Below are positions 1-16,528 of a stretch of DNA of 20,800 nt, in pieces. The position numbers and the translations under genes are program-made. The notes under the pieces are model-generated. The model was not told where the DNA came from and did not search any database. It worked only from the letters and a program-made list of their open reading frames with translations. Position 1 is the first letter of the stretch; every line of letters begins with the position of its first letter. The DNA lies in the IMG/VR virus record IMGVR_UViG_3300030451_006521, positions 1-20,800 of that record; one strand, 5' to 3'. This stretch comes from a virus.

Positions 1-845
1 TCAAGAGTTTTTTTGGTTTGTACTACGTTAGTATGGGCAACGCAGAACCCAAAATCGTGGTAAGGTGTGTCATATATTGCATAAGAAATCTTACGAAATG
101 CATTTTTAGGTTTTTGTTTAAGCATATCTACAATTTTCTTGTGCAATCCTCCTTCAGTTTCTAATCTTTCTGTATTGATAGCTAAATAATAGCATAGTTC
201 TCTCGGAGTGTCAAGCTGAAAAAGCCATTTTTCTTCAAGATTTTTCATATTAAGGCCTGCAATGGCACGAATCCGATTAATTTCGGCTGGTCTGGAAACT
301 TGGCCAATTTCTGGCTCAGAGTGAGTAAAATAATTCAGATGGTGGATTGCGGAAAAAATAAAATTATTTAAAGAATTATAATATGTTTTAATGTTTAAAT
401 CACCTAAAGAATTTTCAATTTCTAAATTTGAAATAATTGTTATAGAATTAAGAAGGCCAGATCTAGCATATTCTTGTAATACACCAAAAGTCGTATTTTC
501 AATGAGCACTGGCAATCCTGTTAACAATTCTGTATCAGGCTGAATGTAGATTAGATCAATCTTTTTGTGCTTTATTTGTTCCATTATACCAAGACAATAA
601 TTTGAGCTAAATGAGCCCCCAACAATAAAAAATTGTATGTGATCACCTATGTTTTGAAAAAACTTCTTAACATTTGGTACATTTAGTTCATAGTCTTCTG
701 GGTTTTCATATGTTTCTAACTTAAATTCATTTTTGGTGTTTTTTGAAATTTTAGAATTAAGTTTATAAACTTTATATTGCTGTATCTCAGAAAATAATTC
801 TGAAATCGCTGACGCGGCATTGCCAAGCCCTACAATCGATATCAT
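1..845 (-). CDS. Partial ORF, possible divergent tubulin/FtsZ-like protein (3' end beyond window)
   Basis: An open frame of 281 codons runs from an ATG at 845 to the left edge without a stop, so the C-terminus is missing. The ATG overlaps the polymerase stop as ATGA, which indicates translational coupling. Seen: an N-terminal strand then GLGNA (residues 6-10), a strand followed by GGSFSSN (76-82), an Asn-rich segment YYNSLNNF (155-162) starting a helix, a PAEI segment (186-189), and late hydrophobic strands near 253-258 and 265-271. In FtsZ/tubulin the T1 loop, the GGGTGTG T4 loop, the T6 Asn and the T7 acidic loop come in this order, and the T4-to-T6 spacing (about 80 residues) matches. The T4 loop has lost most of its glycines, so nucleotide binding may be altered. 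Alternatives are an unrelated Rossmann-like protein or a novel phage protein. The reading frame is certain; the fold assignment is inference. Confidence 0.5.
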   Translation of the reverse strand, partial: MISIVGLGNAASAISELFSEIQQYKVYKLNSKISKNTKNEFKLETYENPEDYELNVPNVKKFFQNIGDHIQFFIVGGSFSSNYCLGIMEQIKHKKIDLIYIQPDTELLTGLPVLIENTTFGVLQEYARSGLLNSITIISNLEIENSLGDLNIKTYYNSLNNFIFSAIHHLNYFTHSEPEIGQVSRPAEINRIRAIAGLNMKNLEEKWLFQLDTPRELCYYLAINTERLETEGGLHKKIVDMLKQKPKNAFRKISYAIYDTPYHDFGFCVAHTNVVQTKKTL

Positions 846-2011
846 ATCTCTATCTCTCTCAGATTAAAGCCATCTTTTCCAATGCTTACAGAGGACATAT
901 AACCATCTTCAAATATTTGTTTAATTTCAGTGATTAAATCGCGCTCTTTGTCACAATAGTCTAATACAATTTCATCGTGAATTACGTGCGACACATAGCT
1001 CTTGTGGCCATCAAGAAACTTATCAATCATCACAGCTTTTTCTAGAACGCGATCAGCAGTTGTGCTTTGGATTAAGTAATTGAATGCTTTTCGTTTTTCA
1101 ACCTCAATACAACGTCCGTATGGTGTTCTAATATGCTTGCCATCATACCACGTATCCAAAAGACTTTCGCGATCATATAAATTAGTGTTAATATCAGTTG
1201 AGTCAGGATCATACAACCATGCAAAAAATCTAACCTTGCACTCATCACGGCTCACTTCTTGCTCAAAGAGATGCTTACAGTTCCACTCATGAATATCCTC
1301 TTGTGGTTGTTCAAGACCCTGTAATTCCAATAGTGTTCTAACTTCTGCACCATTATAATCTAAAGCAACAAATAGGTCATTATTGGGTTTCAAAACCTGA
1401 CGAATTTCTTTTTTTAAAGTTAGCATAGGAAATGAGTTTTGTTTTGTAGTAAGGCGCCCTGTGACTGTTCCAAACAAATCATAGTCGATGTAATTATTGT
1501 TTAAAATCTGCTTGATTTTGTTCCTTGAAACGCTAGATGTCATAAGGTGCTTGCAATCAGAAATATTTAAATTAAGTTGTTGGTACCTAATTTTATGAAG
1601 CAGCTTTTGTACCATATCAAGATGTTGGTAATTTTGCGGCTTTTCAAAATTATCAAAAACATGTTCAGTAACTTTGTTTTTAATTTCACAAAACTGCAGC
1701 AGGAAGTCGTGCGGAATAAGATCGTATATGCAATGTTCGCGTAAATTAATCTTAGCAATTTCAAAAGATTTAACATAAGCCCGCGCCTTCTTTTGGACAT
1801 TTTGTAAATCTTCTTTAAGATGCTCGGGACAACAATCAATTAACTCTTTTCCGCCTGAATAAAGCCATGCATACTGAATAGCGTCATCAGTAATTGAGCC
1901 ACTATACTTCCATGTTCTTGTTAGCCCAGTTGGTATGTTTTTAAAGTCAAGTTTTCCGTTAGCGTATACTCCGATGCATTCATTTTTATCGTCAATAGCC
2001 TGAAAAATCAT
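842..2011 (-). CDS. Compact family A DNA polymerase (PolA-like), exonuclease-less
   Basis: This 389-aa protein carries the full family A polymerase core. It has a GTVTGRL segment (181-187), motif A DYNGAEVR (218-225, catalytic Asp218), motif B with Arg255, Lys259, Phe263 and Tyr267 at exactly the spacing of E. coli Pol I R754/K758/F762/Y766, an O-helix-side QSTTAD (315-320), and motif C HDE (345-347). The Gly after the motif B Tyr is replaced by Asp. Only about 175 residues precede the first palm motif and none look like the 3'-5' or 5'-3' exonuclease domains, so it is far shorter than Pol I (928 aa) or T7 gp5 (704 aa). The ATG at 2011 has a GAGG ribosome site six bases upstream and overlaps the preceding gene by 20 bases. 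Inferred role: DNA synthesis or gap filling, expressed late with the virion genes. T4 itself uses a family B polymerase, so this is not the T4 gp43 counterpart. Confidence 0.88.
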   Translation of the reverse strand: MIFQAIDDKNECIGVYANGKLDFKNIPTGLTRTWKYSGSITDDAIQYAWLYSGGKELIDCCPEHLKEDLQNVQKKARAYVKSFEIAKINLREHCIYDLIPHDFLLQFCEIKNKVTEHVFDNFEKPQNYQHLDMVQKLLHKIRYQQLNLNISDCKHLMTSSVSRNKIKQILNNNYIDYDLFGTVTGRLTTKQNSFPMLTLKKEIRQVLKPNNDLFVALDYNGAEVRTLLELQGLEQPQEDIHEWNCKHLFEQEVSRDECKVRFFAWLYDPDSTDINTNLYDRESLLDTWYDGKHIRTPYGRCIEVEKRKAFNYLIQSTTADRVLEKAVMIDKFLDGHKSYVSHVIHDEIVLDYCDKERDLITEIKQIFEDGYMSSVSIGKDGFNLREIEI

Positions 2012-3257
2012 TAGCGCCCTCTTCTACTGTAATATTAGTAATGGTTTCTTGCACGAAGTCTTCAAGACGTCGTTTTTTCTTTCCTTCTCTAATATATCCT
2101 AAACAGCCCTCTGTGTCAAATGTTTTATTTATCTGAGATTCTAAAAAGTCGAATAGGTGGCTAAGATCAGGATTTGAATTAAAATGTTCAAGCTGGTTTA
2201 TTACAACCTTAGCTACCTCTTCGTCATCCAAGTCGGGCATTTCTTCATATAATCTTAATTTTGTGTATATTTCAACAAATAGCGAATCATCAAATTGTTC
2301 ATTGTAAGAGTCAATCGTATATTGTTCTGGTTTTACCGCCGAAGCTATAATGGCCCCAGTATCATCACACACAAATAATTCCACGTACTCTTCCCTAATA
2401 AAATTATACAAATCAAACAAAGTATTTTTAAAAAAAGAAAAATTATACCTTGATGAGTTATTATAGAAATATGCAAGTGTCTTGTCTGCTGAGTCCGTTT
2501 CAATATATTTTGATGTAACTGCTAGCACACAATCCGCGTTTAAATCAATGGTAATTCGCCAGGGTATGTTTAAATCTACCATAAAACCATAAGAATCGCA
2601 AGTATTAACAAAAAAATCCCAGTTTGGACTTTTTACAAAATTTTGAATTTTTTCGTGATCATTGATGTAATCAAAATCAGCAATCTCAATTGCTAATCCT
2701 GTTGACATAACTGAGCAATTTTTACTTTTTAAAAACCCTGTGAACGTAAAAGGTTGAAATCTTAGCACACTTTTTAAAATTGGCATTATAGCTGTGACCA
2801 TATCTTTAAAATTATTAATCTTAACACCTTCTTGCAGAAGCAAGCCAGCTAATGAGTTAAAAAATTGTTGTTGATAAGTTTTGTACAATTCTAGCGGATC
2901 TTGATAAGCCTTAAAAGCTTTTAAATTACTTAAGTAAGCATCATTAGGGCGAATATTGCCTGATTGCACACATTTTTTAAATTGGTCTGCCATGGCGTTA
3001 AAAAGGTCAGCGACAAAATTAACTGCAACTGGTGGGATCGATTGATCATCAAATAACGCTAAGTTTTTTAATTTGTCTTTAGTGACTACGAGTGGTATAA
3101 AGTTTTTATTTACTTTACCGTATAATATTTTTTCGGCACCATCCATTTCAATTATATTGTTGTGATTTTGAGCTTTTAAAAATTCACGATATATCGTTCT
3201 TTTATTAAAAAGACGCATTGTGCTCTCGCCATTTGTTTCTGCATAGTACTGTGACAT
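1992..3257 (-). CDS. Unknown conserved-looking protein between baseplate hub and polymerase genes
   Basis: A 421-aa protein I cannot assign. It starts at an ATG one base after the stop of the 1395-aa baseplate gene, with an AGGA site inside that gene's 3' end, and its own stop lies inside the polymerase gene, so it is embedded in a coupled series. The centre (about 169-239) is the most distinctive part: PFTFTGFLKS, then STGLAIEIADFDY, then GFMVDLNIPWRITIDL, a run of alternating strands with a PWR motif. The N-terminal part is helical with Lys- and Gln-rich segments. The C-terminus is acidic apart from a KKKRR cluster (393-397). There is no signal peptide or membrane segment. An in-frame Met at residue 14 (3218) is a possible alternative start. 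Position next to the baseplate genes suggests a virion or baseplate-assembly protein, but a role linked to the polymerase is equally possible. Confidence 0.75.
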   Translation of the reverse strand: MSQYYAETNGESTMRLFNKRTIYREFLKAQNHNNIIEMDGAEKILYGKVNKNFIPLVVTKDKLKNLALFDDQSIPPVAVNFVADLFNAMADQFKKCVQSGNIRPNDAYLSNLKAFKAYQDPLELYKTYQQQFFNSLAGLLLQEGVKINNFKDMVTAIMPILKSVLRFQPFTFTGFLKSKNCSVMSTGLAIEIADFDYINDHEKIQNFVKSPNWDFFVNTCDSYGFMVDLNIPWRITIDLNADCVLAVTSKYIETDSADKTLAYFYNNSSRYNFSFFKNTLFDLYNFIREEYVELFVCDDTGAIIASAVKPEQYTIDSYNEQFDDSLFVEIYTKLRLYEEMPDLDDEEVAKVVINQLEHFNSNPDLSHLFDFLESQINKTFDTEGCLGYIREGKKKRRLEDFVQETITNITVEEGANDFSGY

Positions 3258-3258
3258 T

Positions 3259-6200
3259 TTATGGTTTCCTCATCTCATTGAGTCTATTAGTGATTGCAGT
3301 AGAGCAAGTTGGATCAGTCTCACCATTAGGATCAACCGCGGTTCCACCTTCTGCTGGTGGGAAATCACTTTGTAAGTTAGCAACCCATTTTGCAGATATT
3401 TGTGAGTTAGCTTCTCCCATTCCAAATCTGTGTGTAGAACGAATTATCATGTAATATCCACCAATACCCAACTGCGATAAATCAAAATTAACTTTTTTGC
3501 CATCTTTGTCTACTGTTTGTGGCGGCAGTCTTGCAAAGCTTGGATCAAAACCAGCAGGTGGCACGTAAATGTATGTTCCTGGATATGTATTTACATTTGC
3601 ATATGAAGAAATATCCAAATCATAAACTACTCTTAATTGAGATAGCCCGTCATAACCATCTTGTTCGAATCTGACTTCTGCTAATCCTTTAGATGTGGTT
3701 TTTTGTAAATTAATTTCTTTAATTAATCCTCTATCTCGACCTAAAAGATAGTGAAAAACGCCATTGCCATGATCTGTTGCCCTGTCTGGGACTGTGCCGT
3801 TAGCGGAAACTCTTCCAGCATAAAATACCATATAATTAATCTCGTTGGATAACGGTGAGTAATTGGAAAACTTTTTGTTTGGGCGCCCAGAAACATTTAA
3901 AACGGGTCCTAAGTTTTTATAATCTCCATTTTTTACACTTCCATCTTCATTTAAACCCCTGTGATCAGTCACAACGGCATCAGATATGTTTAGTTTAGTT
4001 GGGTTTCCGTTACCAGAAAGATTTTTAATCGCTTTTGCTTTTTCTCTAAGTAAATATGTAATATCATCTAAGCCGCCATATTCAGGTGGCGAAAAAGAAG
4101 TTAAAGTAGTTTGATTGACTCTTGATTTTTGTTTAATGTCAAAATAAAAACACCTATTATTGTTTAAAAATTTAGTAACTAAATTGTTCATTAATTGATT
4201 TAAAAATGATGACAACGGATAAAAAACTTCATCTTTTGATAAAACTTTACCAGCAACCCACTCTAAAAAATATTTGACGGAAATTGGAATATCTCCAAAA
4301 CTAACAAATACGCTCGGCTTTTTAGTTTCTTTGTTACTGTGGTGCGCCAACTCAACTGGCCCTAAAATAAGTCTAAATCTTTTTAAGTTTTTTTGATATT
4401 TTTCTAAATCTGATCTTCTTTTATTCCAATCATCAATATGTATGAGTTCTTCATTGACATTTGATGTTGTTGTATAAGTTTTTTTATTGTTTTTATTTTT
4501 GTATTGATCTGACAATTTTTGTAATTCTAGTTGTATGTTTTCTAGAACAATATCAACCAAATCACTTAAATAGAAAAAACTAAGTTCGTTACTTTGCGGT
4601 GATGCTGCAAAAAGGGCAGCTTTGAGGGAAGCCTCGGAAGCGTCCTGCTCGGTGCTTTGTAACTGTTGTTGATAGGCAGCGAAAGCATCGTTAATAATTT
4701 GTTGTTGCACCTCATCCTTATCAGAATCTGTGGTAACTAAGTTACCTCCTGAGCCTAATATAACATAATCTTCATAAGCTCTAAAGGGGCCATCGGCAAT
4801 AAAGTTTTGTATTTTTTCGTAATCTAAGTTTATATAATATATTTTTTTTCTTTGGATCATGCTTCTCATTAATGAACTTAGTGAATCATTTACTTCTTGC
4901 TCTACTACATCTCTATATAAGTTATTCAAATCTTGTATTTCTGAAGCAGACGAACACTTTGATCGCAATCGTTTCATTTGCATTCTTCTGATTTCTCTTT
5001 GCCACCCAACTTGACCAGTCGGATCAGCAAAAACATTGAAACCACGATCATCAAAAAAATCATCAATATATGCAAGATAATTGATTTCAAAAGTAACGGC
5101 GCCGTTTTGTTCAAAATTAAAATTGTGTATTGTGGGTGTTAGATTTAAAGTAACAAATGAATTTGATAAAACTGTTTTTAATCTATCTTTTTGATCTGCA
5201 TCTAAGCCAGGAATTCCGCCTTTTGGCATTGACCACCCAACAACAGCCTTTAGTCTAAAATTAAGTTTTGCTAGGTTTGCATTTTCATCAAATATTTTTT
5301 GATATTTTTTAGCTAACGAATTATCATTTGTAAATTTTGAAAATGTTTTTAATGCTAAATCAATATATCGATATTTCTTAGTACCGCCTAATTTTAATTG
5401 CCCATTTTCAACTTTAGTAGTTTCGCCATCTCTTTCAAGAAACAATTCTTGGAAAGTTGCAGAATGGAGGACCAGTTTTGCTTTAATGCTTTTTTTATAC
5501 GAAAAAGGATTGCTTCCATCATAAGTAAATTCGAACTCTTTTAAGCCAACACCAGCGGATCTAGTTTTTCGTCCAAGAAAAACATTTTCTAATTCATCGC
5601 GGGTAAATGCTGAATTAAACTTCATTTCTACTTCTTCTTCTAAGTCAGTAAATTGATCATCGTCCATTTCTTCATTATATTCAACCTTAAAAAGTCTTAT
5701 CATGGGCTGTAGTGCTGAAAGTTGGTGATGGGGAATATCAATTAAATCGCCATAATTTGGTGACTGCGTTAATTTATTTACGAAAGCAAAAGAATCACCA
5801 TTCATTTGTAAACAAGCATTGTATTGGCTTTGTGATGCGAAATCAGTCTGTTTAAAACCTAACTCTTTAATGTTCGAGTATGGTAATCTTTTAGTAATCC
5901 CCTCAATATTTTTTGGTTCAAGCTTGTTTGTGTGTTCAAGAGTTTTATTTTTAAAATCAGCAATTTTTGCTGCAAATGCTAACAAGAAACATTGTTCCTT
6001 GAAAAGTTTCTTGTCCTCCACGGAGCCAAATCCAATATCATCCAAATCAGTTTCATCAAGGTTTTGAATTGCTTGGTTAAGTGCGTCTTCAGCTACGTTA
6101 TTATCCAACGCTTCTGCTGCTTCTGGAATTGCTGCCCCAAGGCCATCAATAAAATCGTCAAAATCATCTTTAGCTTCTTTGATATCTTCCGCACACGATT

Positions 6201-7446
6201 TAATTTTTTCAAGTAGTGACTTCAAGTTTGCATATAAACTATTGCTACCCGATGTTAAAAAACTTTTGAGTTCTCCATCTGGTAATCTTTCAGCTGATGG
6301 GATGCAATAATTATCAATAAAATCAATTAAACCAACTTTATCCCCTAAAGGACCTAACACAGAAGAAGCAGCAGCATCTGGGGCAAAGTAATCCAATGTT
6401 GTCTGCGCTTTTGAATATATTGTAGCTGATGAGCCATCTGCACCGCCTGTAAACGCGTTGACTTCTGATTCTGTGGGCAGTGTCTGAGCCAGCCCCATTT
6501 CTAAAAGATTATGTAAGCTGACAATAAATGATGCATACAAATGTGGTATATCATTAAAATCCATAGGAGTTTCAGATGGTTGTGGTATATCGCTGTAAAA
6601 CTCAGGAGTGATTAACGCTCTCCGTGCTTGTTCATTCATCAGTAGGTGATCAAAATTAGCATATATGCCGCTACTGTTTACTAAATAACTAGGAATATTA
6701 GCAGGTGGCTCAACCGATGCTATCAAATTTGTAACATTACCAACTTTACCATATTCGCCTTGCAAAGAATCATACAGTACCTGATCTTGATCAAATAATG
6801 GCCTTGTTGGTATGCTACCTCGAAGTGTGTTGGCATCAAAATCTTCAAACATTCCAGCGGTTGGATCTGATGCCCCTTGAAAAAACAGATCAATCGCCTG
6901 TTGTAAGGTTAATTTTGCATCTTTTAAACTATTTGCACATTCTAAAGACTCCTGCTTAATTCCTGTGCCAACTGATTGAATGTCTTCTTCAATTATTTCA
7001 TATAACTCGTTTGCGCGATATTCTTGCCATGCTTTGTCCATAATTTGATCTGCAGAACAATCTATTCGTGCATAAGCCATTCGAACAACATCTTTTCCGA
7101 CATCGCGACCAGCAGTTGGCATAAGACCACCAGCCGCGGCGCCGCGGGCAGATTCGGCTTCTGCGCTTTGTAAACGATTATATGACTCTACTAAAAAAGT
7201 GCCAGTGCCAAGTTCTTCATCAAGCCTAGCAGCACCTGAAGAGTTTAATGTACCGAAGCCACCAGCGCCATAAGTAGTATAAACAAACGCACATTTATTG
7301 CCCAATAGTGCTTCTGCATTGGCGTTTTTCCAATCTTTTTCTGTAGTTCCACCGTCAAGCTGATCAACTTTGCTTTTGAAAGCATCTTCGTATCTTTCTT
7401 TTATTTCGCTTTCTGACATGTCTACTAAATTATTAGTTCTAGACAT
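3259..7446 (-). CDS. Giant baseplate structural protein, probable hub component
   Basis: A 1395-aa protein whose ATG shares a base with the preceding stop (TAATG), so it is coupled to the gp53-like gene. The N-terminal third (1-550) is mostly helical and low in similarity to anything I know, with a Gly/Ala-rich segment at 95-115 and acidic helices at 415-470. The middle (about 635-800) looks like tail-tube or hub beta domains, including FEFTYDGSNPFSY and later LTPTIHNFNF then VTFEINYLAYIDD. The C-terminus has YYMIIRSTHRFGMGEANSQI (1331-1350), similar in pattern to hub domains that close with a strand, an HxFG turn and a final strand. T4 gp27 (391 aa) and gp5 (575 aa) are far smaller, so this may merge several baseplate functions. 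A hub role is inferred from that ending and from its place after tape measure, gp48-like and gp53-like genes. A wedge protein is the alternative. Confidence 0.7.
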   Translation of the reverse strand: MSRTNNLVDMSESEIKERYEDAFKSKVDQLDGGTTEKDWKNANAEALLGNKCAFVYTTYGAGGFGTLNSSGAARLDEELGTGTFLVESYNRLQSAEAESARGAAAGGLMPTAGRDVGKDVVRMAYARIDCSADQIMDKAWQEYRANELYEIIEEDIQSVGTGIKQESLECANSLKDAKLTLQQAIDLFFQGASDPTAGMFEDFDANTLRGSIPTRPLFDQDQVLYDSLQGEYGKVGNVTNLIASVEPPANIPSYLVNSSGIYANFDHLLMNEQARRALITPEFYSDIPQPSETPMDFNDIPHLYASFIVSLHNLLEMGLAQTLPTESEVNAFTGGADGSSATIYSKAQTTLDYFAPDAAASSVLGPLGDKVGLIDFIDNYCIPSAERLPDGELKSFLTSGSNSLYANLKSLLEKIKSCAEDIKEAKDDFDDFIDGLGAAIPEAAEALDNNVAEDALNQAIQNLDETDLDDIGFGSVEDKKLFKEQCFLLAFAAKIADFKNKTLEHTNKLEPKNIEGITKRLPYSNIKELGFKQTDFASQSQYNACLQMNGDSFAFVNKLTQSPNYGDLIDIPHHQLSALQPMIRLFKVEYNEEMDDDQFTDLEEEVEMKFNSAFTRDELENVFLGRKTRSAGVGLKEFEFTYDGSNPFSYKKSIKAKLVLHSATFQELFLERDGETTKVENGQLKLGGTKKYRYIDLALKTFSKFTNDNSLAKKYQKIFDENANLAKLNFRLKAVVGWSMPKGGIPGLDADQKDRLKTVLSNSFVTLNLTPTIHNFNFEQNGAVTFEINYLAYIDDFFDDRGFNVFADPTGQVGWQREIRRMQMKRLRSKCSSASEIQDLNNLYRDVVEQEVNDSLSSLMRSMIQRKKIYYINLDYEKIQNFIADGPFRAYEDYVILGSGGNLVTTDSDKDEVQQQIINDAFAAYQQQLQSTEQDASEASLKAALFAASPQSNELSFFYLSDLVDIVLENIQLELQKLSDQYKNKNNKKTYTTTSNVNEELIHIDDWNKRRSDLEKYQKNLKRFRLILGPVELAHHSNKETKKPSVFVSFGDIPISVKYFLEWVAGKVLSKDEVFYPLSSFLNQLMNNLVTKFLNNNRCFYFDIKQKSRVNQTTLTSFSPPEYGGLDDITYLLREKAKAIKNLSGNGNPTKLNISDAVVTDHRGLNEDGSVKNGDYKNLGPVLNVSGRPNKKFSNYSPLSNEINYMVFYAGRVSANGTVPDRATDHGNGVFHYLLGRDRGLIKEINLQKTTSKGLAEVRFEQDGYDGLSQLRVVYDLDISSYANVNTYPGTYIYVPPAGFDPSFARLPPQTVDKDGKKVNFDLSQLGIGGYYMIIRSTHRFGMGEANSQISAKWVANLQSDFPPAEGGTAVDPNGETDPTCSTAITNRLNEMRKP

Positions 7447-7790
7447 TAATATACTCCGAGTGCAATTAGCACCTTTTCTAAATTTAGCGGAATTACAATC
7501 GCATCTCCATTTTGAATATCAGCTTCAGTTGGCAATCCGTTATACCAAGCAATAACCCACCAATATTCTGCATCATCATAATACTTGTGTGCAAGGTTAT
7601 AAAATCTGTCACCGTATTTCCATATATGGCTTGTTGTTTTAAGTGAAGCTCTCTCCAACATGGTGGGGTGGCGCATAACAACTGTAGAATAATGTGCGAT
7701 AGACTTGGTATTGCCACGCTTTTTTCTAAGAAACTCGTAAAACTCTGTATTGTTTTCTAAAATTTTTGATCTTGTATATCTTGTAGCCAT
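7446..7790 (-). CDS. 53: gp53-like baseplate wedge protein with LysM-like fold
   Basis: A 114-aa protein. After a basic, helical N-terminus (1-45), the segment HIWKYGDRFYNLAHKYYDDA (55-74), then EYWWVIAWYN (75-84) and a final GDAIVIP turn (95-101), follows the LysM-like pattern found in gp53-type wedge proteins and in the small LysM proteins of contractile injection systems. T4 gp53 is somewhat longer (196 aa), so this is a reduced form. It is expected to sit between the baseplate centre and the wedges. The ATG at 7790 lies ten bases after the upstream stop, and the AGGA ribosome site overlaps that stop codon. The stop shares one base with the start of the giant baseplate gene. The LysM pattern is seen; the gp53 equivalence combines it with gene order. 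Confidence 0.72.
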   Translation of the reverse strand: MATRYTRSKILENNTEFYEFLRKKRGNTKSIAHYSTVVMRHPTMLERASLKTTSHIWKYGDRFYNLAHKYYDDAEYWWVIAWYNGLPTEADIQNGDAIVIPLNLEKVLIALGVY

Positions 7791-12056: not shown

Positions 12057-12908
12057 TCACCTGTCAGGCCAAAAAAAGTCCGCGGTGAGCGGCACCTCCA
12101 AGTCTTGTTCATGGCCACAGTTTGAGCATTCAAAATTCTGTGTCATATCTACGTTTGGTGCGGTTAGCTTGTAGCAAGTTCTTAAGTGCCGTGCGTCCAG
12201 CGAAGGAATGTTTTCAATTAAAAAATTAATCGCTTGCGGGCTTTCATCATTATTAACTGATACAACCATGTTTTTAATTTGAGTTGTTACATTAGTCTCG
12301 GGACGTTTACGCTTTCTATCATTCTCAGCTTGGGCTAAAATATTCTTTTCATCACGGCCATTTAAAAGCCTAAAATCCACAGTTAAACCAGTTTTTGGCA
12401 ACACTGTGGTAAAAGTGCCGTCATTGTTATCAACAACACCAAGCGCTTCAGATTGCTCAAGATCTTGCATCTGAATATCATTTAAATCAAATGTATTAGT
12501 TTGGGTTGTGCCGCATGCAGGGCAATCCACATGTGTAGTATAATCATTACCATAGCCAGAAATTCTTGCTGCAATTAAAATCGCATTTCGATCTCCAACA
12601 AGTAGTGTGTCTACATTAATACGATTATCCATAACTAGACTTTGCAATACTCGATCAATAGCAACACCATTTTTAAGGAGAGTTCTTGATGTAAGAATAT
12701 CTTCCTCTTTGGCAGTCATTTGTTTAATCTCAACTGATTGTTGATTATAAAGTGGGTGGTTTTGAGCATAAAAACGCCCACCCGATGGGAGTTCTACAAA
12801 TTCGGTAGGGACCACAAATGAGAATCCCGCGTTTTCTTGTAGAGCTTGTTGTGGAGGGCTAGCATTTTCTGGAGTTGGCAAGCCCATCCTATCTCTATTA
12901 CGTGACAA
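12057..12908 (-). CDS. 26: gp26-like baseplate protein with CxxC pairs
   Basis: A 283-aa protein of the T4 gp26-type baseplate family. Seen: FVELPSGGRFY (37-47), then the strongly conserved MTAKEEDILTSR (64-75), RINVDTLLVGDRNAIL (96-111) and an ARISGYG segment (114-120). Two cysteine pairs, C129/C132 (CPAC) and C261/C264 (CSNC), lie about 130 residues apart and probably come together as a zinc ribbon; the protein ends in the WPDR tail. The first 30 residues are Pro/Gln-rich and likely disordered. The chosen start is TTG at 12908, because GAGGTG lies four bases upstream; an ATG at 12887 (residue 8) with a weaker site is possible. Inferred role: assembly of the baseplate hub or its junction with the tape measure. 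It follows the tube gene after a short gap. Confidence 0.75.
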   Translation of the reverse strand: MSRNRDRMGLPTPENASPPQQALQENAGFSFVVPTEFVELPSGGRFYAQNHPLYNQQSVEIKQMTAKEEDILTSRTLLKNGVAIDRVLQSLVMDNRINVDTLLVGDRNAILIAARISGYGNDYTTHVDCPACGTTQTNTFDLNDIQMQDLEQSEALGVVDNNDGTFTTVLPKTGLTVDFRLLNGRDEKNILAQAENDRKRKRPETNVTTQIKNMVVSVNNDESPQAINFLIENIPSLDARHLRTCYKLTAPNVDMTQNFECSNCGHEQDLEVPLTADFFWPDR

Positions 12909-13585: not shown

Positions 13586-16528
13586 TTAGTCTTCAAATGA
13601 TGCGCCTGTTGAAGCAACCACGAAATCAATCGCAATGTACTCGATAGCGCGTGCTGGCTTAACCATAATCTTAGCATACATGATGTTTTGATCAATTAAG
13701 TCAGGGGTCGTTGTAGTTTCATCGAGAATAAGTTTATAATCGGTGATACCGTACTGTGTCTTGACCGTTGAAAGGAATGGCTCAACAAGCCCCTTGAAAC
13801 GATTCCATGTGGTTTGCACATTTTGTTCAAAAAGAACTTGTGTGGAAAGAATGGAAATTTGTTTTTTCAAGTAAATAACCAAGCGACGAACATTGATTCT
13901 ATCAAGTGCCGAAGCTCTTTCTTGAAGTGTTTTCTGGCCAAATACTACTAATCCAGTAGATGGGAATGAGGCAATTGGGTTAATCTTAGCTTCATAGAGA
14001 ATATCCCTATCTTTAGAGGTAAGTCTCTCGGTTACATTTGTAACTGGGATACCCGCTGCTCCATCCGAAAGTCCACCGCGGTTAAATCCTGCGGGGGCAA
14101 ACCAAAGGTGCGAGCGAGCCTGAGAAGATGCTAGCACACCCATCATAGCAACACTTGGTGGAATCCACACTAGCTTACTAGTTGGCTCATCAAGTGTTTG
14201 GACCCATGGATAGAATGTTGCACCATAAGAAGTGTCAAGTCTTCTATTCTTAAGTGCATTTGCTACACTTTCTGCACCCGCTCCCAATCGACTTGAGAAT
14301 TTTGCACTGTAAGACTCGTGATTTGGCGTATAGACACCTGGAAGATCTATGAGACCCATTGCATCACCTCTATCCTCGCAAACATTCGTTAAGTGAGTTG
14401 TTAAGGCGTCTGCTGTAAGACCAGGCATTGTAAGCAAGTTCATATCAACTGATTCTGGGTCTGCAATTGTGTCAATTGCTCTTCGAACAGTGTAGAACGC
14501 TGAACTATTAAGTTCTGTCTTATCAGAAGTCATTAATGAGTTAGCAAATGGATCTGGGACCTTAACGTCCAATCCGTCATAACCTCCAAAGAATGGTGCC
14601 GTAAACCTGTTTACGCGAGCATTCAACAATCTTTCATAAGATGCAGATGAATAGGAAGCAGCGTTTACATGAGAACCAGATTCATAATAGAACATTTCAT
14701 TAGCGCCAGATCCTTGTGCTTTAATATCATTGAGCGTGAAAATATAAGAGAAGCCTTGCACACCAGTAGTTGCACTTGTTGTAGTGTCAACACTTTGCGC
14801 TAGTCTGTCGTCTAAAAGACCGTGCATGTCTGCTACACTGTCATCGTGACGCGTGCTTGTAGTTTCACGTGTGTTCATAAATCCATAATATGCATTCTTC
14901 TGATCTGACAGACCTCCATCAGAGCCACTGTGGCGAAGTCTGTCAATTGGGAACACAAATTGCGCTCTCAACTTTCCACTGCCGTGTGAAGACGCGTTTA
15001 ATACGCTACCGATTGACATGAACAAGTTGCCGCTTGCGCAAGATGCAGTACTATGTGGGTCTCCACCTGTCGCGTTTTGTGGTGCACCAAAAGCGCCCGA
15101 TACCATTTGAATCATCGAAGCCACTGGGGTTTTATCAAGGGCACCTGATACATAATTAACAGTAGCATATCTTGGTGGACCATAATATCCGAAAGGTAAC
15201 GATTTAGCATTTGTGGCCCCTGCTTCAACTTCTGTGTTCATTTCAACATAAACATATTTTGATAAGTTGGGATATGAGCCATATCTTCTAAGTCTGCGTT
15301 CTTGGTTGTTCCACTCATAGTATGTGTCACCAATTTTTCTAGCAACATAATTTGGAGATGCAGGATCAAGATTACAATTGTCGAATCTTTCTAAAACAAC
15401 AACTCTGTTATCTGTATCTTGCAATTGTCTAATAACAACCGAGAATGTTCCGTAATCTGTTGTGGTTGAAGTTGACTGACGGATTTTTTCAATTGAAACT
15501 TTGCAATTTTTCTGCAACCATTCACCATGGCCGCGGCCAACAAGACGAAACAGTTTTTGAGCATTTTCAATTACAAAAGTGCTGGCATCTCCAGTTAAAT
15601 CTTGACCAATAAACCATCCTGCTCTTGCCTCTTGTGAAGCAAGACGTTTTTCGTGTGGACCTTTATCTGTTGAGCCTGACAACGCTATAGGATAGATAAT
15701 TCCTAGTGCCGCTTGATCAACTAAACTATTGTCTCTTATAAACTGCTCATAACTTTCACCGAGCCAATAAGGCTTGTAAGCATCTTCGTGGAAGTACGTG
15801 CCTGCATCACTTGAAAGTGCAGGGTTCGTGTTAAATCTATCTCTAATATAGTTATCGCTGTTGTCGTTAAAGCCAAATTTAACTTTTTCATCATGGGTTC
15901 CGCCAGCAGTTTTCACAAGAACAGTGAATAAGTTATTTGCATCTGTCTTGAAAAGCATACCAGTACCCGCGTTAGTGCCTGCCGATTCGGACCAGTAGGT
16001 TCCTGAAAGTTGGACTTGAGAGCCTGAGTTGCAATACCACACAGCAGCTAAAGAGCCCGTACCTGGCGTTTCTGAAGATGCAGAATCATATGTGGAATTT
16101 GGGAACACAAACAATCCATACGCTCCACCGATACTAGCTAGTGCTGTTTGTGATGGTGGGTTCGTTGTATCCCAACCTGCTTTTCCATCCGTGGTAGCTG
16201 CTGGGTGTTCTGCTCCAAGTAATCTAATGTATGTAAGAGGGGCTACATTAGCTGCCAAGAATGCTTTGGAAGCAAAAGTACCGTACATTGGAGAATTTAA
16301 ATTTCCATTTCTTGGAACATCTCCACCGTTTCCACCTGCAACCGTTTCTCCAAACACTTCGACAAATTCAGAATAAGACTGAACTTTAATTGGTTGAAGC
16401 GCGAGACCTCTTACTGAACGGCCAATTACTACTGGCCCAATTTCTTCTGATGCGCGTGGACGAAACGAATTATCAATTTCGTTAATAAACACTCCAGGAG
16501 ATACAAACTTAAAACTTTTAACTGACAT
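13586..16528 (-). CDS. 18: Tail sheath protein (gp18-like), enlarged
   Basis: A 980-aa contractile sheath protein. The N-terminus has the family signature FVSPGVFINEIDNS (8-21) and GPVVIGRSVRG (31-41). The C-terminal 140 residues are clearly sheath: VVFGQKTLQ, then ASALDRINVRRLVIYLKK, LFEQN, and the final PARAIEYIAIDFVV strand that forms the inter-subunit mesh. T4 gp18 is 659 aa, so about 320 extra residues sit in the middle, probably as extra surface domains, with long Ser/Gly/Thr-rich stretches (about 90-250 and 440-620). It polymerises around the tube and drives injection by contracting. The ATG at 16528 has AGAGGG about nine bases upstream. The 124-base leader before it holds several dyads. 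The call is certain; the extra-domain boundaries are estimates. Confidence 0.95.
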   Translation of the reverse strand: MSVKSFKFVSPGVFINEIDNSFRPRASEEIGPVVIGRSVRGLALQPIKVQSYSEFVEVFGETVAGGNGGDVPRNGNLNSPMYGTFASKAFLAANVAPLTYIRLLGAEHPAATTDGKAGWDTTNPPSQTALASIGGAYGLFVFPNSTYDSASSETPGTGSLAAVWYCNSGSQVQLSGTYWSESAGTNAGTGMLFKTDANNLFTVLVKTAGGTHDEKVKFGFNDNSDNYIRDRFNTNPALSSDAGTYFHEDAYKPYWLGESYEQFIRDNSLVDQAALGIIYPIALSGSTDKGPHEKRLASQEARAGWFIGQDLTGDASTFVIENAQKLFRLVGRGHGEWLQKNCKVSIEKIRQSTSTTTDYGTFSVVIRQLQDTDNRVVVLERFDNCNLDPASPNYVARKIGDTYYEWNNQERRLRRYGSYPNLSKYVYVEMNTEVEAGATNAKSLPFGYYGPPRYATVNYVSGALDKTPVASMIQMVSGAFGAPQNATGGDPHSTASCASGNLFMSIGSVLNASSHGSGKLRAQFVFPIDRLRHSGSDGGLSDQKNAYYGFMNTRETTSTRHDDSVADMHGLLDDRLAQSVDTTTSATTGVQGFSYIFTLNDIKAQGSGANEMFYYESGSHVNAASYSSASYERLLNARVNRFTAPFFGGYDGLDVKVPDPFANSLMTSDKTELNSSAFYTVRRAIDTIADPESVDMNLLTMPGLTADALTTHLTNVCEDRGDAMGLIDLPGVYTPNHESYSAKFSSRLGAGAESVANALKNRRLDTSYGATFYPWVQTLDEPTSKLVWIPPSVAMMGVLASSQARSHLWFAPAGFNRGGLSDGAAGIPVTNVTERLTSKDRDILYEAKINPIASFPSTGLVVFGQKTLQERASALDRINVRRLVIYLKKQISILSTQVLFEQNVQTTWNRFKGLVEPFLSTVKTQYGITDYKLILDETTTTPDLIDQNIMYAKIMVKPARAIEYIAIDFVVASTGASFED

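Follow-up and report, generated by a model that had tools for sequence, protein, structure and literature searches.

What does a small DNA polymerase do beside the tail genes of a phage? The question is raised by the window, that is, the whole 20.8 kb viral fragment analysed here, whose source is read as a large ocean phage. On its minus strand, positions 842..2011 encode a short family A DNA polymerase of the divPolA1 type (389 aa plus stop). An earlier note on the same DNA had left three roles side by side for this enzyme: repair or end filling, packaging in the virion, or replacement of the replicase.

The assignment to family A comes from Pfam DNA_pol_A (PF00476; E 5.7e-12, 45.7 bits against a gathering cut-off of 34.3) and from the DNA polymerase family PHROG 17 (E 9.5e-18); comparison with Taq and Klenow chains gave a weak sequence match (7e-4). 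Family A is the only polymerase family that Pfam recognises in the ORF, with no qualifying match to PF00136, the family B of gp43. The catalytic motifs are complete, as the earlier note had read them, and lie on the minus strand: TGR (1454..1462, residues 184-186; coordinates computed from the ORF), motif A DYNGAEVR (1337..1360, residues 218-225) with the catalytic Asp 218, the steric-gate Glu 223 and R225, motif B or O-helix (1211..1249, R255-K259-F263-Y267), and motif C HDE (971..979, residues 345-347) with the second catalytic Asp, 346. Q315 is a further catalytic position, so that motifs A, B and C, both Asp, the O-helix R/K/F/Y and the Gln of family A are all represented. T184/G185/R186, D218, E223, R225, R255, K259, F263, Y267, Q315 and H345-D346-E347 are invariant in the 56 aligned relatives; a further alignment set the motifs against E. 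coli Pol I and T7 gp5. Relative to textbook Pol I, the O-helix has changed its glycines, from FG..YG to FA..YD/N.

The structure prediction that had been proposed as a check gave a confident, Klenow-like AlphaFold2 model (pLDDT 90.9, pTM 0.90). It aligns with Bst Pol I, the large fragment of the Bacillus enzyme, at Z 24.8 over 347 residues (rmsd 3.9), and model residues 1 to 385 span this alignment, the thumb being included in that range. Only ~60 residues precede the thumb helices: the 3′-5′ exonuclease domain is absent, in agreement with the earlier reading, and neither Pfam nor PHROG matched an exonuclease family in the ORF. The aligner's ranges begin at Bst residue 316, which we take to lie inside the vestigial exonuclease domain of that enzyme. 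Judged from these range ends only, polymerase residues 1 to ~45 may be a remnant of the exonuclease domain. The motifs and the predicted fold together support a polymerase that looks active and does not proofread.

Could the gene instead be a piece of something longer? Scanning viral contigs yielded 132 confirmed relatives, of which 80 were kept; these are 51-80% identical to the window polymerase, nearly all of them matched over the whole length. The window polymerase is not a broken longer gene, because full-length relatives occur in ~80 other viral contigs: the short PolA is about as long at all 80 loci as in the window, which rules out a fragment, a frameshift or an assembly join. The substitution pattern excludes the same case, which the earlier note had named as its own refutation. 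Against L003, a relative with 80% identity, dN is 0.12 and dS 2.3 (saturated), and the differences by codon position (63/26/181) fall mostly on the third; the gene is, on these counts, under strong purifying selection. BLAST found no near match in cultivated phages. One match came from GTDB, in a WOR-3 MAG (CP070664.1), with a PolA 39% identical and the same phage neighbours. Since these neighbours sit between masked or N stretches, this locus is probably a phage piece, and it was set aside as a bacterial-genome home for the short PolA; its presence in the MAG chromosome is possibly a scaffolding error.

At both ends the polymerase gene overlaps its neighbours, as had been noticed: by 20 nt with the upstream ORF (1992..3257, minus, 421 aa) and by 4 nt with the downstream one, as an ATGA stop/start overlap (842..845, minus). 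The 421-aa ORF precedes polA at 61/61 testable loci. Neither this ORF nor the 1395-aa ORF before it (3259-7446, minus) has a Pfam or PHROG match worth naming, and the two lie between the baseplate-like genes and polA. Further upstream, all on the minus strand, are a baseplate wedge-like protein (7446..7790; phrog_7145, E 4.4e-10), a T4-type baseplate (hub) protein (12057..12908; PF12322, E 5.4e-21; phrog_150, E 3.4e-24) and the tail sheath protein (13586..16528; PF17482, E 1e-11; PF04984, E 2.6e-8); the genes leading to polA thus run sheath, tube, baseplate, conserved 421-aa ORF. On the other side, the order in the relatives is a tubulin-fold ORF, gp32 SSB, UvsX, FEN 5′ nuclease, DnaB and a B12-type ribonucleotide reductase. 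Where the flank is long enough, the tubulin fold is found at 80/80 loci, gp32 at 62/62, UvsX at 29/29, FEN at 28/29 and DnaB at 26/29; FEN is a separate gene (PF02739, E 2.7e-30). In the same replication block, the related genome G002 has a UV-endonuclease-like ORF, read by eye.

The earlier note had placed the polymerase inside a virion operon and directly after baseplate genes. Co-oriented tail genes do lie upstream; however, because the next genes are the tubulin fold, gp32 SSB, UvsX, FEN and DnaB, polA is better read, from this gene order, as the junction of a tail module with a replication and recombination block. "Directly after baseplate" also turns out to be loose: a baseplate-like gene exists, but the nearest one is at 7446-7790 and the adjoining ORF has no recognised family.

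Which enzyme, then, copies these genomes? The expectation had been a family B polymerase encoded elsewhere, as in T4. PF00136 was found in 0/12 of the longest related contigs, which reach 195.7 kb (two are long, 189.7 and 195.7 kb), while an E. coli control was detected; each of the 12 has one family A gene, the short PolA. What the relatives do encode is DnaE, of family C. A search of 30 related contigs located it downstream of polA in 15/15 of those with at least 19.8 kb beyond polA and in 0/15 of those with at most 15.8 kb; the window itself ends too early to show it. These proteins have about 1,150 aa; that of the related genome G001 (1152 aa; PHROG 405, E 1.5e-233) has PHP, alpha NTPase, finger and HHH domains. 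Because its PHP metal-site residues look intact when read by eye, it may proofread itself. A separate DnaQ-type exonuclease was considered as a partner of the short PolA and rejected, RNase_T/DnaQ (PF00929) not being found in three large relatives. DnaE is most likely the replicase of these phages, to judge from gene content, and the short PolA a second polymerase; with no family B found and DnaE in every testable relative, the short PolA is probably not a replacement replicase.

We consider it fairly probable that the enzyme is an accessory family A polymerase in a split Pol I: an exonuclease-less PolA and a separate FEN, which would fill gaps and mature Okazaki fragments beside the DnaE replicase. 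Among the roles listed at the outset, repair in the sense of gap filling is the most likely for an enzyme that looks active and non-proofreading. The short PolA would be the polymerase half of bacterial Pol I, and its 5′ nuclease half would be the FEN gene a few genes downstream. The polymerase would extend 3′ ends into gaps, and then slightly into the downstream strand; because a polymerase without proofreading cannot idle back, a short 5′ flap would result, which the phage FEN would cut, leaving a nick for ligase. Proofreading-deficient Pol gamma gains strand displacement and makes flaps (PMC4557304), and the FEN-family RNase H of T4 acts in Okazaki repair with gp32 (PMC3012046). The scheme would be the phage counterpart of the way in which bacterial Pol III and Pol I split their work, covering both Okazaki-fragment maturation and gap repair, and a possible extra use would be to fill the recombination intermediates that gp32 and UvsX help to form. 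Polymerase activity, strand displacement, the FEN partnership and timing are what we infer here. The split Pol I agrees with the constant grouping of polA, gp32 and FEN and with the presence of another enzyme as replicase; the lack of any fusion of polA to FEN or DnaE counts against it. A search of three large relatives for DNA ligase (PF01653, PF01068) and beta clamp (PF02767) found neither, so that a host or unrecognised ligase and clamp would be needed, and the host may supply what completes the pathway.

The same constant context could equally be compatible with a role in recombination. The enzyme would then serve recombination or repair: together with gp32 and UvsX it would extend D-loops or carry synthesis past lesions, rather than process Okazaki fragments as a routine. 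We regard this as possible, if unlikely: gp32 and UvsX stand just downstream at all testable loci, lost proofreading suits lesion bypass, and the UV-endonuclease-like ORF of G002 is in the same block, but FEN and DnaB in that block point to lagging-strand work too, and by sequence the two roles look alike.

It is distinctly improbable that the short PolA is itself the replicase, perhaps the ancestral one, with its DnaE, PolB or PolA partner serving another purpose. Exchange of one replicase for another is known, so that a polymerase gene which is exchanged is the likelier replicase. The short PolA has no proofreading domain, the search for an RNase_T/DnaQ partner in the three large relatives was negative, and a complete DnaE accompanies it in all 15 testable contigs. 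What speaks for this reading is that the short PolA holds a constant place by the replication block whereas the family and context of the "regular" polymerase vary, a pattern also described by Yutin et al. 2024 (PMC11348598). As for an enzyme made late and packaged in the virion, for instance to fill ends on entry, polA indeed shares the orientation of the last tail-module genes and overlaps with them; it is joined equally to replication genes, however, the T4-type late promoter TATAAATA has no match within the window, and no targeting feature was found. This last explanation we hold to be extremely unlikely.

Another question concerns the gene coupled to polA on the downstream side (3..845, minus; truncated by the contig end after 281 aa), which encodes a tubulin/FtsZ-fold protein of about 278-288 aa in the relatives. 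At 79/80 related loci the polA stop and the start of this gene overlap as ATGA or GTGA. The ORF has no Pfam or PHROG family match; its model (pLDDT 91.6) resembles the tubulin/FtsZ superfamily over the whole length (CetZ, Z 24.0; TubZ, Z 22.7, rmsd 3.0). In place of the usual GGGTGTG loop it has G-G/S-S-x-S-S-N-Y. A second tubulin/FtsZ protein occurs in G001 (PF00091, 2.4e-8; L105:14545-15693, G001 94545-95696), with the canonical G-rich loop GGGGTGSS; its gene overlaps the end of an SbcCD-like gene, and the protein is 87% identical in G002. In the phages immuto and Mel-JY01 the stretch from polA to SSB showed no tubulin-like ORF, so the coupling marks the window's clade. Literature searches for a phage tubulin of the polA-coupled kind returned nothing that matched, and a new link between a short PolA and a phage tubulin is possible. 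Do the two proteins form one unit, and does a filament system, together with the second tubulin/FtsZ, hold or position a gap-filling polymerase at the sites of phage DNA synthesis? We think this rather unlikely.

The wider family can be followed through the nearest named phages by terminase: Flavobacterium phage immuto (46.8%), Microcystis phage Mel-JY01 and the uncultured LR756508. Their short PolA-like ORFs have 441 aa (gp001 of immuto; L135:1-1326), 408 aa (L137:20398-21624) and 452 aa (L125:14359-15717), and match profile A1 at 1.7e-15, 2.0e-11 and 4.6e-17, respectively. In a 17-taxon tree, a small taxon set, the short PolAs form one clade with bootstrap 100. In immuto and Mel-JY01 the gene lies between tail genes and SSB/RecA/FEN/DnaB, and in LR756508 RecA, FEN and DnaB come after it. 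The main polymerase is a full-length family A enzyme (gp199) in immuto and of family B in Mel-JY01; LR756508 (L125, L130, L139), a 484 kb phage, carries its short PolA together with matches to both DnaE and family B as main polymerases. In all three short PolAs, His takes the place of the steric-gate Glu and motif C is YDA, with both catalytic Asp kept. By their sequence, these changes may alter sugar choice in the immuto-type enzymes, and because of them function may differ across the family.

What these loci add is an uncultured, mostly marine-looking group of T4-type phages with a bacterial-type DnaE and a separate minimal Pol I. Across the wider family the short PolA and FEN stay put while the replicase is swapped among families A, B and C; this speaks for a job that is separable from bulk replication. 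The cultivated relatives immuto and Mel-JY01 make such a separable role testable.

How does this arrangement compare with known systems? Bacterial Pol I, or its Klenow fragment, shares the polymerase-domain fold and the catalytic motifs, but joins a 5′ nuclease and a 3′-5′ exonuclease to them in one chain; the 389-aa window protein lacks the 3′-5′ exonuclease domain, and the relatives encode the 5′ nuclease separately. The T4 replication set (gp43 of family B, the FEN rnh, gp32) has in common with these phages a gp32-type SSB, UvsX, a FEN-family 5′ nuclease and a DnaB-type helicase, as well as a T4-type tail; in the relatives, however, family B was not found (12 longest contigs), with DnaE instead and an extra family A polymerase. 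A split between genes is also seen in Rhodothermus phage RM378, of Far-T4 type, whose polymerase and exonuclease are encoded apart and which has a FEN-like gene besides. Its polymerase part is of family B (PF00136, E 2.2e-33), with no family A match, and an RM378-like split of one polymerase was rejected for this reason.

The closest parallel is divPolA1, the name given to the immuto protein and its relatives: an extra PolA with the palm kept, the exonuclease inactivated and the thumb domain truncated, accompanying a regular polymerase of family A, B or C (PMC11348598). Conserved replication genes lie downstream of it; the role was left open, with involvement in replication suggested, and the set includes ocean (GOV) members, with MK892584 (protein QDP51333) and LR796625 among its records (PMC11348598). 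The window protein is homologous to the immuto members, keeps its palm catalysis and has no working exonuclease; in its relatives a regular polymerase, DnaE, is encoded as well (15/15 testable contigs), and the same kind of replication genes follows. By homology and gene context it is a new member of a kind already known. It differs in the canonical E223 and HDE of its clade, against the H and YDA of immuto, Mel-JY01 and LR756508, in a shorter N-terminus (389 aa against 408-452 aa), and in the coupling of its polA to a tubulin-fold gene.
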